Source: Clostridium sp. BNL1100
GTDB taxonomy: Bacteria; Bacillota; Clostridia; Acetivibrionales; DSM-1351
Assembly (NCBI RefSeq): GCF_000244875.1
Contig: NC_016791.1
Span: 186,001 to 250,000 of the forward strand
Reading direction: 5' to 3'
Length of the DNA: 64,000 bases
Below the pieces are notes generated by a model. It had not been told where the DNA came from. It was given only the letters and a program-made list of their open reading frames with translations, and searched no databases. Positions 13,435-29,888 of the stretch are shown here, piece by piece; positions within the stretch are counted from its first letter, which is position 1; every line of letters begins with the position of its first letter. Both the position numbers and the translations under genes were made by a program.

Positions 13435-13576
13435 AGATCATCCTCCTGAACTCATTGTACCAAATTTCCAAATTAATGCATATGTAAGGCGATATTTTTG
13501 GAAAAAAAGTCGGACAGCTGCAATTCCGGTATGCTATTATATTCTCATCTTAAGAGACTAAAGGAGCGCTTCTTTG

Positions 13577-14926
13577 ATGAACTACTATGAAAGAATTCAG
13601 AAATCCATTGATTACATTGAAGACAATCTTGAAAACAAGATTAACCTGGACTTTGCAGCACAAAAAGCATATATGTCTATGTCAAACTTTTATAGAATGT
13701 TTTTTGCACTAACCGGCTATTCGGTAAAAGAATATATCAGGCTTCGCAGGATTAGCCTGGCGGCTTTTGAGCTACAAAGTAGCAATACTTGTTTAATTGA
13801 TATTGCAATAAAGTTTGATTTTGAAAGCGGAGACAGCTTTTCAAGAGCTTTCAAACGTGTAACGGGATTTCTGCCAAGTGATTATAGGAAACAGAAAAAC
13901 TTGTACAACTTTGAGAGGATTGATATTATGGAAAAGTATTTTGATATTCAGGACAAAGAACTTATTGAGAATTATCCTGACATAAAGGTTTTGAAAGAAC
14001 TGAAGCCAACTCGTGTAGCATATTTTTGCTATTATGGAAAACAACCTGAGCACCATGCTTTTGCTGTAATGGCAGAATGGCTTAATAAGAATAGTCTGAA
14101 TGTAAATGAACAGAATTTACGTATTTTCGGATACAATAACCCGAATCCGTCATCTCCCGATGAAGTAGAATACGGGTACGAAGTGTGCGTCACTGTTGCA
14201 GATAATATAGTTATAAAGGATGACCTTGTAAAGGAAAAAGTTCTAGACGGAGGACTTTACGCTGTTACAAACGTTAAGCGAGGACAGGATGGTAATATAG
14301 GGGATGAAATCGTCAAGGCGTGGAACCGCTTTAAAAACTGGCTTTCGGACAGCAAATATGTTTATGGCGGACACCAGTGGTTGGAAGAGCACTTGGGCTT
14401 TGATGATAATGCCACCCATATCGGTGGAATAGACTTATATATGCCTATAGCTGTGAAATCCAGTGAGTATGACATAACCAAAACATTTGATTACATAGAA
14501 CCTATGTTGACGGCTACATATACTGCAACCGGAAAAGATGCAGCTGAAAAAGCACGTGCTTTCTTTTTTAAATGGGCAGATTCCCAAGGCTTCTTTAATG
14601 ACAGCAAGACACACAGGTTTTTTGCTTACTACAACCATGAGAGAATAGGTCATAAAGATTTTTTCTATAAAATCCATGTTACAGTCGATAAAGAATTTAG
14701 AGCTGATAATCCGGATATTAAGCTGGAAGAGTTTAAAGGCGGTTACTATGCCATAATGAAAGCAAAATACAGTTATAACGGTTGGACATGGGGCGAGTTT
14801 CTTAAATGGTTATCCAAAAGTACGGAATTTGACTTGGGAGACTATTGGTTTTTTGAAGAATATAAGCTTAATAAACCTGAACTTGAAATGGATACAGAAG
14901 TAGTTTTACATATGCCGGTAAAATAA
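13577..14926 (+). CDS. AraC-type regulator with two tandem GyrI-like effector domains
   Basis: The 449-aa protein has an N-terminal double helix-turn-helix of AraC type (about 1-105; IDIAIKFDFESGDSFSRAF, then GFLPSDYR) and two successive GyrI/SOUL-like domains (about 135-300 and 305-449). Each ends in a similar acidic-strand plus LYMPI/LHMPV signature. Proteins of this Rob/SoxS-GyrI type bind small, often toxic or lipophilic molecules. Two effector domains in one chain is less usual and hints at an internal duplication. I chose the ATG at 13577, 10 nt after GGAG, over the adjacent TTG 13574. A related regulator follows. Confidence 0.87.
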   Translation: MNYYERIQKSIDYIEDNLENKINLDFAAQKAYMSMSNFYRMFFALTGYSVKEYIRLRRISLAAFELQSSNTCLIDIAIKFDFESGDSFSRAFKRVTGFLPSDYRKQKNLYNFERIDIMEKYFDIQDKELIENYPDIKVLKELKPTRVAYFCYYGKQPEHHAFAVMAEWLNKNSLNVNEQNLRIFGYNNPNPSSPDEVEYGYEVCVTVADNIVIKDDLVKEKVLDGGLYAVTNVKRGQDGNIGDEIVKAWNRFKNWLSDSKYVYGGHQWLEEHLGFDDNATHIGGIDLYMPIAVKSSEYDITKTFDYIEPMLTATYTATGKDAAEKARAFFFKWADSQGFFNDSKTHRFFAYYNHERIGHKDFFYKIHVTVDKEFRADNPDIKLEEFKGGYYAIMKAKYSYNGWTWGEFLKWLSKSTEFDLGDYWFFEEYKLNKPELEMDTEVVLHMPVK

Positions 14927-15043
14927 AAAGTGTAAGTAGCGTAGGGGAGTTAGGGGGAGGGATACCCTGCAATATAGTGCATGAATTGACGGGATATATA
15001 ATTCTGTCCATGTTAGACTGATTATTGAAGGGAGGTTATGCGT

Positions 15044-15916
15044 ATGAACTGGCTTGATAAGATGAATGAAGCAATTTGCTATGTAGAAGATAACTTAACG
15101 GGAGAGATTGATTTTGACGAAGCTGCAATAAAGGCATGTTGTTCAACCTATCATTTTCAACGTATGTTTTCGTTCATTACAGATGTACCGTTGTCTGAAT
15201 ACATCAGACGCAGACGGCTAACTCTCGCAGCGTTTGAACTTCAGAACAGAGGTGTAAAGGTAATCGACCTTGCGTTCAAATACGGATATGAGTCCCCCGA
15301 CGCATTTACCCGTGCATTTCAAAATCTACATGGTGTTACGCCCACATCAGCGCGTGATATGGGCATACAGCTAAAAGCCTATCCACGCATATCCTTCCAT
15401 ATTTCGATTAAAGGAGATATGGAGATGAATTACAGAATTGAAGAGAAGGAAAGTTTTTCAGTATTTGGTGTTGATACAATTGTAAGTAAGGTAGATGGGA
15501 AATGTTATGAGAAAATACCTTCATTCTGGCTTAAATCAATTAAAGACGGGACTATGGAACGTATTTTAAAAGCTGCTGACTGCAGGAATCCTGATATGTT
15601 GCTGAATGCTGCAATGTACGGGCATCAGGATGATGGGACGTATCATTATATGTTATGTCAAAAAACTCCGCAAAAAGGTATTCCTGAAGGCTTTGTAGAA
15701 CTGGACATACCAAAGCTGACTTGGGCCATTTTCCCGACAGAAGAGCATACCGAGGACAAAACTTCAGAAAAGGTACAGGCAATATGGGAACGCATATACC
15801 CGGAATGGTTTCCCTCATCAGGTTATCAACATGCAGATGCCCCTGAATTTGAAATGTACTATAAAGTGGGCGATAATAAATTTATAGTAGAAATCTGGAT
15901 ACCGGTTTATAAATAG
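15044..15916 (+). CDS. AraC-type regulator with one GyrI-like domain
   Basis: This 290-aa regulator has an N-terminal AraC double helix-turn-helix (about 1-105; VIDLAFKYGYESPDAFTRAF, GVTPTSAR) and a single GyrI-like ligand domain (about 130-290) ending in FIVEIWIPVYK. It resembles the preceding regulator domain for domain, suggesting a duplicated pair. I chose ATG 15044, which is 8 nt after GGGAGG; ATG 15038 is too close. The separation of 117 bp makes independent transcription possible. No efflux or enzyme gene adjoins on this strand, so the target is unknown. Confidence 0.87.
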   Translation: MNWLDKMNEAICYVEDNLTGEIDFDEAAIKACCSTYHFQRMFSFITDVPLSEYIRRRRLTLAAFELQNRGVKVIDLAFKYGYESPDAFTRAFQNLHGVTPTSARDMGIQLKAYPRISFHISIKGDMEMNYRIEEKESFSVFGVDTIVSKVDGKCYEKIPSFWLKSIKDGTMERILKAADCRNPDMLLNAAMYGHQDDGTYHYMLCQKTPQKGIPEGFVELDIPKLTWAIFPTEEHTEDKTSEKVQAIWERIYPEWFPSSGYQHADAPEFEMYYKVGDNKFIVEIWIPVYK

Positions 15917-15929
15917 AATTTAGCTTCTT

Positions 15930-16226
15930 TTATTTATTCAAAAACTTAGAAACCGTCCGGCAATCAAAGAATCCTTGCTTATAGAAGAAAGCTTGATTGT
16001 CGGAAGAAAGTTTCCCATTTATGCTATCAAGCTCCAGAACCAGTGCAAAGGTTTCAGAAGGCAATAAATTTGCCAGCTTCTTTAAGATGTCTTGATACTT
16101 ATTATAAATCTCCAAACAATCAGCGGAATTGCTGAACTCGTCGCTCAACTCATCAATTCTCCTATCCATACAAGATAAAATGAAACTTTCCCTGCTCTTA
16201 AAAATATCGTTATTTTTATTAAACAT
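15930..16226 (-). CDS. Small DUF6809-like protein behind a hairpin-masked ribosome site
   Basis: The 98-aa helical protein (MFNKNNDIFKSRESFILSC onward, ending in VSKFLNK) resembles the small clostridial DUF6809 family by its general helical pattern; this link is tentative. It contains no membrane segment. The ATG at 16226 has a good TGGAGGG site 7 nt upstream. That site lies inside a near-perfect hairpin (16229-16261), and a terminator-like hairpin lies just before it. Expression is therefore likely to depend on RNA structure. A longer upstream reading is open but lacks a ribosome site. Confidence 0.7.
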   Translation of the reverse strand: MFNKNNDIFKSRESFILSCMDRRIDELSDEFSNSADCLEIYNKYQDILKKLANLLPSETFALVLELDSINGKLSSDNQAFFYKQGFFDCRTVSKFLNK

Positions 16227-16228
16227 AT

Positions 16229-16261
16229 ATTTTCCCTCCAAAGAAAAAATGGAGGGAAAAT
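16229..16261 (-). promoter_or_regulatory. Hairpin sequestering the ribosome-binding site of the 15930-16226 gene
   Basis: Bases 16229-16240 pair without mismatch with 16250-16261 (12 bp) around a 9-nt A-rich loop. Read on the minus strand, the 3' arm holds TGGAGGG, the ribosome site 7 nt before the ATG. This would block translation unless opened by RNA, protein, heat or RNase. Confidence 0.75.
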
Positions 16262-16297
16262 TAAAAAGTGCGGATAGGTGTGACCCTACACGCACTT
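16262..16297 (-). terminator. Terminator-like hairpin in the leader of the 15930-16226 gene
   Basis: On the minus strand AAGTGCG (16297-16291) pairs with CGCACTT (16272-16266), with an inner TAGG/CCTA stem, and is followed by TTTAATTTT. It stands in front of the coding start, so it either attenuates that gene or ends a separate upstream transcript. Confidence 0.6.
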
Positions 16298-16303
16298 GTT
16301 TGA

Positions 16304-16332
16304 TTGCAAAAAGAAACAAAACCAAGTATAAT
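16304..16332 (+). promoter_or_regulatory. Sigma-A promoter of the four-way-junction RNA
   Basis: TTGCAA (16304-16309), a 17-bp spacer and a perfect TATAAT (16327-16332) predict transcription starting near 16339. That is exactly where the first stem of the RNA begins. Confidence 0.75.
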
Positions 16333-16338
16333 AAAAAC

Positions 16339-16434
16339 TGGTTGCTGTGGTGGACTTTCGTCCATACGTGTGGGTGCTCGTAACACCTGCATGAGTTACT
16401 AAGTGTTTGCACCACTTAGTAATCACGGCAACTA
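16339..16434 (+). ncRNA. Candidate structured small RNA with a perfect four-way junction
   Basis: The 96-nt segment folds into a cloverleaf with almost no unpaired junction bases. P1 is 16339-16349 with 16424-16434 (11 bp). P2 is 16350-16355 with 16360-16365 (6 bp, 4-nt loop). P3 is 16367-16376 with 16384-16393 (10 bp, loop CTCGTAA). P4 is 16395-16405 with 16413-16423 (11 bp, loop TTTGCAC). Seven pairs are G-U only when read on the + strand; on the minus strand they become A-C mismatches, which fixes the direction. A promoter is positioned for a start at 16339, and a T-rich stretch (16435-16444) follows. I match it to no known class: it is not tRNA (no CCA or T-loop), SRP, 6S or a riboswitch I know. 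It lies at the 3' side of the minus-strand AraC gene. Confidence 0.7.
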
Positions 16435-16487
16435 TTTAATTTTCCCTAAAAAGATTATATCCATTATGTGAGAATTTTGCAAGAAAT

Positions 16488-19941: not shown

Positions 19942-20124
19942 TCAAAGTCGTCCAAGCAGATTACTACAAGTACCATCACAACCTGAACAACCATACTGAC
20001 AACTACCACTACAACTATAACTGCAAGCACTAATACAAATAGCTGAACAAAAAGCATTGCAAGAATAACCATTTACATCTTTCTTTGACTTACCGATTTT
20101 TTTATTAGAAAATAAACGATCCAT
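19942..20124 (-). CDS. Cys-rich RiPP precursor peptide (CxxxC ladder)
   Basis: The 60-aa peptide has a basic leader (about 1-21, MDRLFSNKKIGKSKKDVNGY) and a core with nine cysteines at 22, 26, 30, 34, 38, 42, 46, 49 and 53. That is six successive CxxxC steps, then CxxC and CxxxC, with Ser, Ala, Gly and aromatic residues between. GGGAGG lies 8 nt before the ATG. It is on the same strand as, and 64 bp beyond, a radical SAM maturase operon. Known clostridial Cys-rich/CXXX-repeat peptides with such maturases gain thioether cross-links (sactipeptide or ranthipeptide type); that product is inferred here. Confidence 0.85.
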   Translation of the reverse strand: MDRLFSNKKIGKSKKDVNGYSCNAFCSAICISACSYSCSGSCQYGCSGCDGTCSNLLGRL

Positions 20125-20498: not shown

Positions 20499-22625
20499 TT
20501 ATGTTTTTAGTAGCTTTTCCAATGGGTCGCTATAGTCAATTTCTCTTAGTGTATTTTCGAATTTATAGGAGTTATTTTCTTTGAGTAGTCTTTGAAGCTT
20601 CCTAGAATGTTCTCTTTCTATATGGCTTATTACACACTGGATTTTTGAAGGTGTATTTATCTCATTTGTCATTTTTTTGTTTAGGTATTTACATCTGTTG
20701 CAGTTGTAAACATCACAGGCGGAGCATATAGGTGCATTTTCCAACTGGAACAGTTGGGGATTTTTTATATCAATACCGTCCGAAATAGTGCCTATGTGAC
20801 AATCAGGGTCATCAAAGTAAAATGCCGGACATATATAAATTCTTCCGTTTGGCGCAAGTGCAAAAGTATTGGTACCTGCGTCACAGTTTTTCATAGCATT
20901 CAAATTCCATATATCGGTCAATACGTTTATTTCAATTTCTTCGTCTTGGTCGTATTTTTTTGCAACAAATTCAACTATTCTAGCTAACTGAATTTTGTAC
21001 TGCTGAATATCTTGGTCATTCCATTCATTAATATCTTCAATCTCAAGATTTATCCTATAGACCACACTGAAAAGTTTCTCTATTAATTCATATAAGTTAT
21101 GTATATTATGCCTGTTAAGAAGTAAAATGCCGGGAGCTTCTCCATCCTGGTTGTCTGCACTATTGTCATATACTGAAATGGCATTCCCGGCTTGTCCTGC
21201 CTTATCAATAGTAAGGTATTCCTGATGTTTTTCTTCATTTACTCCCTGTGGGACCCCTAAAAAAACAGGTGTATACCCCTTTGCCTCGCAAAATGCGATA
21301 CCTTTTTCTAAAACTTCGGGAGTCATGATATTGTTAGTTGACTTTGTGTTTCTATAGGAACAATGGGGTATGATGTTATCTGAAGTTATAAATTGTAAGT
21401 AGCTCTTGTTTTGCTGTTTTCTGTCCAGTGCAGCTTTTTTTCTTTGAGAAGGCAAGCCGGATACACTTTCAAACTTGTCCCAGAAGTATTGATTTGCTCT
21501 AACAGTCGCTTTATGTATCTTGCATATATGTATAGCCCTTTGGTAAATAGTATCAGTGTCCGCCAGGTCGTAATTGCAGCCCTGACACCAAGCACAGCCG
21601 CTGGCCACTTCACACTTAACACATTCCGGCCGACTTTGACTTTTGAGACTTAAAGCTTGAAAGGGTCTTAGCTTGTCCTGATTAATCCCACTATCAGAGT
21701 TTCCAACACATATTGCTTTCCGGTTATTTAGACTGATACTATAAAACCTTACGCATGGATAAAAGTTGCCGTCACAGTCAATTGCCAACATTTTTCCTGC
21801 ACCGCAGTAATTTTGATTTATGTCTTCTTCTGTAAGCGGGTTACCTATGCTGGGATCGAAGAATCTTACAGAGTATTCTTCCCATAGCTTGTTCTCAAGA
21901 ACGTAATCAGCAAGCTCCCTGAGCTGCTGTTCCATAATTATGTCGTCGCCGTCCTTCCATACATCCTCAAACACTACATTTGCGGCTACAATTTTTATAC
22001 CGATATCCCAAAGGCTGATAATACTATCTTTAAGATAAGGAATATCATCATGGGCAAAGGTAGCCTTTGAAGAGGAGTCCGGAAATTGGCTTAGCCAGAG
22101 AGGTACATTTTTAATTACATCGTCATAGGAGCCGCTGCCATCCGGCTTTATTCTTTGCAAGTCATGTTTCACTTTATTTCCATCTACACTTAAACCGATA
22201 GAGAGGTGTGCCTTATTCTTTTTAATATATTTTTGAACCGCCGGTGTGCTGTAAAGAAGACCATTACTTGAGAAGGATAATCTGTAGCTGTTGAACCAAG
22301 GATGGTCAAGGAGGAAGGTTTGCTGCTTGATGTAGTCTGTTATTCTATCCACCAGCTCAATTTCTACAAAAGCCTCTCCGCCTATGAATTCCCATATTAC
22401 TGATTTTTCATTAAAAGTCTCTCTTTCAGAAAGTAAATAGTCCACAACCTTTTTAGCTGTTTCAAAGGTCATCTTTTTAAAACTGTTTTTACCTGTCATA
22501 TAGCAGTATTTACAGGCAAGGTTACAGTCTTCTGTTACGCAGAAGGTTATATTCTTTGGCCTTCCATCCAGACCTTCCCACGAAGGGGCTAAACTTCCCA
22601 TTTTGATATTTGTACTATTTCCCAC
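20499..22625 (-). CDS. Radical SAM/SPASM Cys-rich peptide maturase (CcpM-like)
   Basis: The 708-aa enzyme has the [4Fe-4S]-SAM motif C34NLAC38KYC41 and an N-terminal radical SAM barrel. A SPASM region follows (about 270-365; CGAGKMLAIDCDGNFYPC, then CVKCEVASGCAWC). A second half (about 400-708) has another SPASM-like cluster (CDAGTNTFALAPNGRIYIC, ICSACDVYNCNRC) but no second CxxxCxxC. This matches the architecture of clostridial CcpM-type maturases. It should install thioethers in the Cys-rich peptide encoded downstream. The GTG at 22625 sits 7 nt after AAGGAG and only 4 bp after the subtilase gene. Confidence 0.88.
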   Translation of the reverse strand: MGNSTNIKMGSLAPSWEGLDGRPKNITFCVTEDCNLACKYCYMTGKNSFKKMTFETAKKVVDYLLSERETFNEKSVIWEFIGGEAFVEIELVDRITDYIKQQTFLLDHPWFNSYRLSFSSNGLLYSTPAVQKYIKKNKAHLSIGLSVDGNKVKHDLQRIKPDGSGSYDDVIKNVPLWLSQFPDSSSKATFAHDDIPYLKDSIISLWDIGIKIVAANVVFEDVWKDGDDIIMEQQLRELADYVLENKLWEEYSVRFFDPSIGNPLTEEDINQNYCGAGKMLAIDCDGNFYPCVRFYSISLNNRKAICVGNSDSGINQDKLRPFQALSLKSQSRPECVKCEVASGCAWCQGCNYDLADTDTIYQRAIHICKIHKATVRANQYFWDKFESVSGLPSQRKKAALDRKQQNKSYLQFITSDNIIPHCSYRNTKSTNNIMTPEVLEKGIAFCEAKGYTPVFLGVPQGVNEEKHQEYLTIDKAGQAGNAISVYDNSADNQDGEAPGILLLNRHNIHNLYELIEKLFSVVYRINLEIEDINEWNDQDIQQYKIQLARIVEFVAKKYDQDEEIEINVLTDIWNLNAMKNCDAGTNTFALAPNGRIYICPAFYFDDPDCHIGTISDGIDIKNPQLFQLENAPICSACDVYNCNRCKYLNKKMTNEINTPSKIQCVISHIEREHSRKLQRLLKENNSYKFENTLREIDYSDPLEKLLKT

Positions 22626-29797: not shown

Positions 29798-29888
29798 TGG
29801 CGGAGAGAGAGGGATTCGAACCCTCGGTGAGTGTTACCCCACACACGATTTCCAGTCGTGCGCCTTAGACCAGCTCAGCCATCTCTCC
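29798..29888 (-). tRNA. tRNA-Ser (anticodon GGA)
   Basis: The minus strand reads a 91-nt class II tRNA. The 7-bp acceptor GGAGAGA pairs with TCTCTCC, followed by G and an encoded CCA. The anticodon arm CGACT-GGAAA-TCGTG gives anticodon GGA, decoding UCC/UCU. The long variable arm is typical of tRNA-Ser, and the T-loop GGTTCGAATCC is intact. It is a single tRNA gene with its own promoter and terminator. Confidence 0.97.

Follow-up and report, generated by a model that had tools for sequence, protein, structure and literature searches.

The window, a stretch of 64,000 nucleotides from Clostridium sp. BNL1100, carries on its plus strand a compact four-way junction of 96 nt (16339-16434), whose stems of 11, 6, 10 and 11 bp close with only two unpaired bases. 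The fold and its covariation define P1 (16339-16349 with 16424-16434), P2 (16350-16355 with 16360-16365), P3 (16367-16376 with 16384-16393) and P4 (16395-16405 with 16413-16423), which expose loops at 16356-16359, 16377-16383 and 16406-16412, respectively. The stretch 16330-16444 has a folding energy of -48.1 kcal/mol on this strand, against a mean of -24.2 (sd 3.6) for 200 shuffled sequences, none of which folds as well (z -6.74). Seven pairs are G-U (two in P1, one in P2, three in P3 and one in P4) and would be A-C on the other strand. A promoter, TTGCAA-N17-TATAAT, lies at 16304-16332 and is conserved among related loci, as described below; around the element, promoter-like sites as such are about as numerous as chance predicts (4 seen, 2.4 expected). 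The RNA would span 16339-16444, its end being placed in the T-rich tail that follows P4 and P1.

An earlier note, made from the letters of this DNA, had proposed the junction, its seven G-U pairs and its promoter, and these are all borne out. It had also assigned the RNA to no known class. In a search of the window with Rfam release 15, no family reached its gathering score at the element; the list of matches up to E 10 for its stretch had 15 entries, all below their families' gathering scores, and among 40 loci given the same search none matched at the element. This check did not contradict the assignment. Neither ARAGORN nor RF00005 placed a tRNA at the element, the sole tRNA of the window being a tRNA-Ser at 29798-29888, and the 7-nt P3 loop, once likened to an anticodon loop, is simply one of three hypervariable loops.

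The minus strand carries an identical promoter sequence (16482-16454) that faces the first one. This promoter, TTGCAA-N17-TATAAT at 16454-16482, is likewise conserved, and a transcript from its predicted start near 16447 would begin with AGGGAAAATTAAATAGT. It would contain the junction's complement, followed by an intrinsic terminator, a hairpin that hides a ribosome-binding site and a gene for a 98-aa protein (15930-16226, minus strand), giving this gene a leader of about 220 nt. Several segments of the leader, all on the minus strand, appear to be complementary to one another. Its 5' arm (16431-16447) forms an inverted repeat with 16253-16269. The 3' arm of the sense P3 (16367-16374), which we call the pre-emptor, is complementary to the 5' arm of the terminator hairpin (hairpin 16266-16297, arm word 16284-16292), and the same hairpin is found in sister copies. 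The ribosome-binding site is predicted by folding to be paired in a hairpin of 12 perfect pairs (16229-16261). Since a leader with a facing promoter spans the complement of the junction upstream of the gene, the plus-strand RNA is antisense to that leader. The earlier reading therefore stands in part: the structured plus-strand RNA, its promoter, its strand and its lack of an Rfam family hold, and the free-standing small RNA gives way to a cis-encoded antisense RNA facing an attenuator-like leader, as does the likeness to a tRNA. The facing minus-strand promoter, the position in a leader and the repetition of the unit in the genome had been missed.

The protein of the opposite gene is predicted to consist of three helices (mean pLDDT 88), and the predicted structure had no clear fold match. 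DUF6809 (PF20648) is absent from its own Pfam matches and does not reach its gathering score. Five of 16 near relatives match this family weakly (best E 6e-4), and the protein's alignment matches by profile (98.6%) a group including L092, which passes the DUF6809 gathering score. Profile comparison thus suggests a distant link to DUF6809, and it is the only line connecting the two.

The genome contains two further nearly full copies of the leader, 95% and 92% identical to that of the window, and their proteins are 80% and 71% identical to the window protein. A fourth copy of the gene is 50% identical and has one stop inside. The repeated unit comprises promoter, leader and gene, with ends read by eye in the three-copy alignment. 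In the three good copies the promoter and the leader are nearly constant except for the three junction loops and a few paired positions. The decayed fourth copy (L004/L012, G000:C1:256978-257323) keeps a leader remnant that matches only 16256-16321 of the window, with the terminator and the antisense -35 box; its junction is gone. Another remnant (L030/L053, G009:C1:202289-202443) has lost the leader; what is left is the sense promoter stretch, matching at 34 of 34 bases, and the broken end of a gene next to it.

Leader DNA is present in 8 of 60 genomes of relatives, the window's own counted, and a pattern derived from the leader ends found five loci in one contig scan, in Ruminiclostridium papyrosolvens C7 and two Clostridia bins. 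The R. papyrosolvens loci have the same scores as the copies in G005, a genome of the window's genus, which points to Ruminiclostridium, in the phylum Bacillota, as that genus. A covariance model (R1) built from 17 antisense sequences matched over its full length in 18 of 58 order genomes (E 0.1) and in 14 of 391 class genomes (E 0.01). A second model (R2), built from 47 sequences, matched 16 of the 391 class genomes and 6 of 398 phylum genomes at E 0.001, the window's own being in both sets; the phylum set includes genomes outside the class with up to eight copies. With the window's own locus, the resulting comparative set comprises 70 loci drawn from its order, class and phylum. The unit had no DNA match in 72,556 plasmid records, phages and viral contigs gave no match by protein, and viral contigs gave none by two patterns.

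The earlier note had made its fold depend on compensatory changes in homologues, and these are abundant. Among the 17 sequences, 98.1% of the pair cells are paired and 11 pairs have changed on both sides, with none of 500 shuffles as high on both counts; the count of pair types alone is equalled by 20 of the 500. Among the 47 sequences, 96.1% of the cells are paired, 31 of 38 pairs have changed on both sides, and 314 cells show double changes against 94 in shuffled data (0 of 500 as high), figures that lean towards the model because this alignment was fitted to it. The proposal that pairing was kept on the plus strand only is also upheld: over the 47 loci, antisense-strand cells hold 283 G-U pairs against 11 A-C, positions that would pair as G-U in the sense RNA, and 57 mismatches of other kinds, and the 14 copies within the genus hold 102, 0 and 2, respectively. 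In 16 loci (these 14, L018 and L026) folding energies are -45 to -52 kcal/mol for the antisense strand and -25 to -34 for the same stretch read on the sense strand; in the more distant L019 the values are -42.7 and -32.1. By these comparisons the fold is real and kept for the antisense strand.

Both promoters are conserved. At least 9 of 12 consensus bases are found for the sense promoter in 37 of 47 loci (L106 being truncated at this point) and for the antisense promoter in 43 of 47, and mean scores are 9.0 and 9.9, against 7.0 and 7.2 in shuffled sequences. Of the 70 loci, 62 have a terminator-like hairpin (11.7 expected), a tally of hairpins rather than of one aligned terminator, since the rule takes one best hairpin per locus and some of those counted are other hairpins. 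The best hairpin is the ribosome-site hairpin in L013 and L014 and some other hairpin in L067, L073, L086, L113, L124 and seven copies of two genomes, G764 and G802; eight loci have none by this rule. These seven copies (L117, L118, L122, L123, L125, L128 and L130) have downstream regions that resemble one another, with other terminator-like hairpins that lack the GTGTAGG arm. The pre-emptor arrangement was not seen in them, and they possibly represent a second architecture or solo antisense RNAs.

The arms of the leader also change together. The 5' arm of the antisense P3, of the GTGTAGG type, almost repeats the word that forms the 5' arm of the terminator in the sense RNA: the two have at least 7 of 8 letters in common in 37 of 47 loci and 6 in the other 10. 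Exact words of at least 7 letters are found for the P3 arm in 16 of 47 loci, against 0 to 4 of 47 for six other arms, and in the 14 genus copies the exact word reaches only 5 letters because of one mismatch. Pre-emptor and terminator 5' arm score 6.33 as own pairs and 5.47 (sd 0.19) when permuted, and joint changes are seen in L071, L019, L096 and L103. The leader 5' arm scores 12.1 with its own partner, the terminator tail plus the strand opposing the ribosome site, and 9.6 (sd 0.35) with the partners of others. None of 300 permutations reaches the observed value in either test; both used 33 loci (non-genus loci for the leader 5' arm), some of them close kin, and the permutation ignores kinship.

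How could these elements work as a switch? In partition-function folding of growing leaders, the pre-emptor pairs with the terminator 5' arm over 6.6-8.8 bp in 17 of 17 leaders once 2 nt beyond that arm are present; in 16 of 17 the local sense P3 hardly forms. Blocking the region that the antisense RNA covers leaves the terminator 5' arm and all six ribosome-site bases paired in 17 of 17 leaders. At equilibrium, 16 of 17 complete leaders prefer the terminator. The fold with both ON pairings, at 3.4-17.3 kcal/mol above the minimum across the 17 leaders, still leaves 2-6 of the 6 ribosome-site bases paired, and the 5'-arm pairing is weak, with fewer than four pairs in 15 of 17. Equilibrium folding alone, as modelled, does not account for read-through. 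Since the equilibrium favours the terminator and the ON fold lies above the minimum, read-through would have to be kinetic. In plasmid attenuation systems it is likewise a matter of timing.

We therefore propose the following mechanism. When the antisense RNA is absent, the pre-emptor, the 3' half of a weak P3, would pair in the growing leader with the terminator's 5' half. The leader's 5' end could bind the terminator tail together with the strand that otherwise covers the ribosome site, with the result that the gene would be transcribed and translated. The antisense RNA, shaped by its four-way junction, would contact the leader through its exposed loops, presumably by kissing, and then form a duplex. 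This duplex would remove the pre-emptor, the terminator would form and transcription would end; in any read-through product the ribosome site would be closed. The strand asymmetry has a likely reason here: A-C mismatches weaken the sense P3 and leave its 3' arm free to disarm the terminator, and the antisense P3 stays firm. Because the loops differ from copy to copy, no cross-talk is expected between sister copies in the same cell. The fold, its strand, the facing promoters, the terminator-like hairpins and the variability of the loops are established by comparison of sequences; the switch itself comes from folding software. Of the features expected of an antisense attenuator, facing promoters and a leader terminator are present in the sequence, and an exclusive pre-emptor covered by the antisense RNA is indicated by folding and co-variation. 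Taken together, we consider it probable that a cis-encoded antisense RNA, whose transcription we infer, acts on the opposite gene through transcription attenuation, with closure of the ribosome site in support.

The same antisense RNA could act on the leader by blocking translation or by cleavage of the duplex, with a terminator that is not switched. The 12 perfect pairs of the ribosome-site hairpin would suit such a mode of action, as would the preference of the complete leader for the terminator form in 16 of 17 cases, and E. coli SymR acts more on translation than on decay, according to passages of PMC1891008. However, pre-emptor and terminator 5' arm co-vary and pair in all 17 growing leaders, and terminator-like hairpins are far above chance, which makes this alternative unlikely, if worth keeping in mind. 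That the RNA acts in trans on other transcripts, the opposite gene being a mere neighbour, would fit its compact independent fold, its own promoter and its exposed loops, but the opposite leader keeps its promoter, its terminator and its co-varying arms, and loops that vary so freely make a common outside target unlikely; we regard this as improbable.

Two further readings turn on the sense strand and on the repeats. The leader has several alternative folds and could be a functional, riboswitch-like RNA with an incidental antisense transcript, yet it is the antisense strand whose pairing is conserved in the junction (283 against 11 cells), the antisense promoter is found in 43 of 47 loci, and the loops are the most variable part, whereas a ligand pocket would need constancy. 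This reading is very improbable. Three near-full copies and a 17-nt inverted repeat could also evoke a transposable repeat of the MITE type, with inverted ends mistaken for regulation. But the copies contain a gene and both promoters, the inverted repeat co-varies as a leader pairing and relatives precede different genes, and we give this possibility hardly any weight. Control of the opposite gene by antisense attenuation remains our preferred reading.

The sequence between copies changes above all in the loops. Among same-genome copies in five genomes of the genus, 116 of 242 loop positions (48%) differ, against 47 of 1064 stem positions (4%). In the 14 same-genome pairs, the P2 loop is common to 6, the P3 loop to 1, the P4 loop to 1 and all three to none. 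Extending this to 45 pairs from 25 copies in seven genomes, the whole P3 loop is common to one pair, the whole P4 loop to three and both to none. In these 25 copies the loops average 6.4 (P3) and 6.2 (P4) letters, and non-cognate loops of the same genome match over a mean contiguous run of 2.5 and 2.6 letters, respectively. The 47 loci hold 45 distinct P3 loops and 34 distinct P4 loops. P3 loops all differ among the copies of G764 (8 of 8) and of G802 (3 of 3), and some P4 loops recur there. In 38 of 47 loci (15.6 expected) one of the two RNAs, sense or antisense, has a YUNR U-turn in its P4 loop; in P3 loops U-turns are not enriched (19, with 18.5 expected). P4 loops include five reverse-complement pairs, a pattern that hints at loop inversion.

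The genes that follow the leader are varied. By Pfam, the first gene is a SymE toxin (SymE_toxin, PF08845) in L067, L073, L087, L095, L102 and L126, and by look in L106. Spo0E-like genes follow in L094, L100 and L104 (above cut-off), L078 (below cut-off) and L108 (by look), a resolvase in L107 and an HTH protein in L099. Three loci of one genome (L093, L101 and L105 of G163) encode peptides of 60-61 aa with one hydrophobic stretch, the size of type I toxin peptides; the one examined had no Pfam family above cut-off. The controlled gene may be another than the first reading frame in some loci, especially among the distant ones. An antisense RNA over the mRNA of a known toxin family, the mark of type I systems, is predicted in the SymE-bearing relatives only.

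The family can be compared with several known systems. In ColE1, loop-loop recognition between RNAI and RNAII sets the specificity between related copies and acts by primer processing; our element would resemble it in having specificity set by loops, and differs in its proposed attenuation and its four-way junction. The antisense RNA of pT181 governs plasmid copy control by transcription attenuation. Unlike those of pIP501 and pT181, the present element is genomic, forms a compact four-way junction with no Rfam match and would control varied small genes rather than rep. SymE-bearing relatives resemble SymE-SymR, in which an antisense RNA also lies over the 5' end of the symE mRNA; here, unlike for SymR, the antisense promoter lies in a leader with a terminator, and most cargo is not SymE. 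Passages of PMC1891008 place the E. coli symR promoter inside the symE frame, and the relevant passages of a review of type I systems in Clostridia name SymE for E. coli only (PMC6563280). Antisense attenuation itself is established for pIP501 and related plasmids, icsA and the V. anguillarum fat operon, as outlined in PMC4981023 and PMC8383071. The RNAIII of pIP501, as described in part of PMC4981023, is like our element an antisense RNA of 100-140 nt with a promoter facing the leader and, as we propose for our element, attenuation in that leader, and titles in its reference list indicate a U-turn loop and two loop pairs for systems of this type. In the plasmid systems, the rep mRNA has two exclusive forms (passages of PMC8383071). 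The same passages describe RnaG-icsA in Shigella and RNA-beta-fat in Vibrio anguillarum as antisense-driven terminators outside plasmid copy control, presented there as single cases with no multi-copy family; the family described here is multi-copy.

In the literature searched we recognised no description of this RNA family. The element appears to belong to a widespread, apparently unnamed family of small antisense RNAs with which Clostridia and relatives may switch off small genes. Its mode of action would be of a known kind; the RNA family, the scaffold, the genomic spread, the exchangeable cargo and the diversity of loops appear to be new. Antisense attenuation has so far been known mainly from plasmids and a few single genes, and here there are dozens of natural genomic variants, often several per genome, in which a fixed scaffold with variable loops precedes DUF6809-like, SymE toxin, Spo0E-like and resolvase genes. 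This puts a long-standing question within direct reach of experiment, namely how loops set antisense specificity and how sister RNA switches become insulated in one cell. It also predicts that a protein family whose function is unknown (DUF6809-like) is under RNA control. Tentatively, and as something possible rather than probable, we suggest a portable antisense attenuator module, found across the phylum before toxins, sporulation regulators and other small genes, whose copies become mutually insulated through loop changes only, partly by reverse-complementing the P4 loop, which would move the U-turn between the partner RNAs. Such a module would amount to a natural library of orthogonal RNA regulators. 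Orthogonal sets of attenuators are an aim of synthetic biology, as stated in part of PMC3753616.

A few observations concern the surroundings. Two plus-strand genes before the element (13574-14926 and 15038-15916) look by eye like AraC-type regulators. Also by eye, the last part of the second is similar to a stretch beside the copy L002, a likeness which suggests that a larger block may have been duplicated. In L079, CRISPR repeats (RF01316, 494-986) are found some 500 bases away from the copy of the element. Further along the window, on the minus strand, 19942-20124 encodes a Cys-rich peptide (NCBIfam TIGR04118, 49.5 bits, cut-off 35), and 20499-22625 a protein of 708 aa that matches the CXXX-repeat radical SAM maturase TIGR04115 and the CXXX repeat peptide maturase TIGR04119; from these profile matches, we read the two as a RiPP gene cluster.
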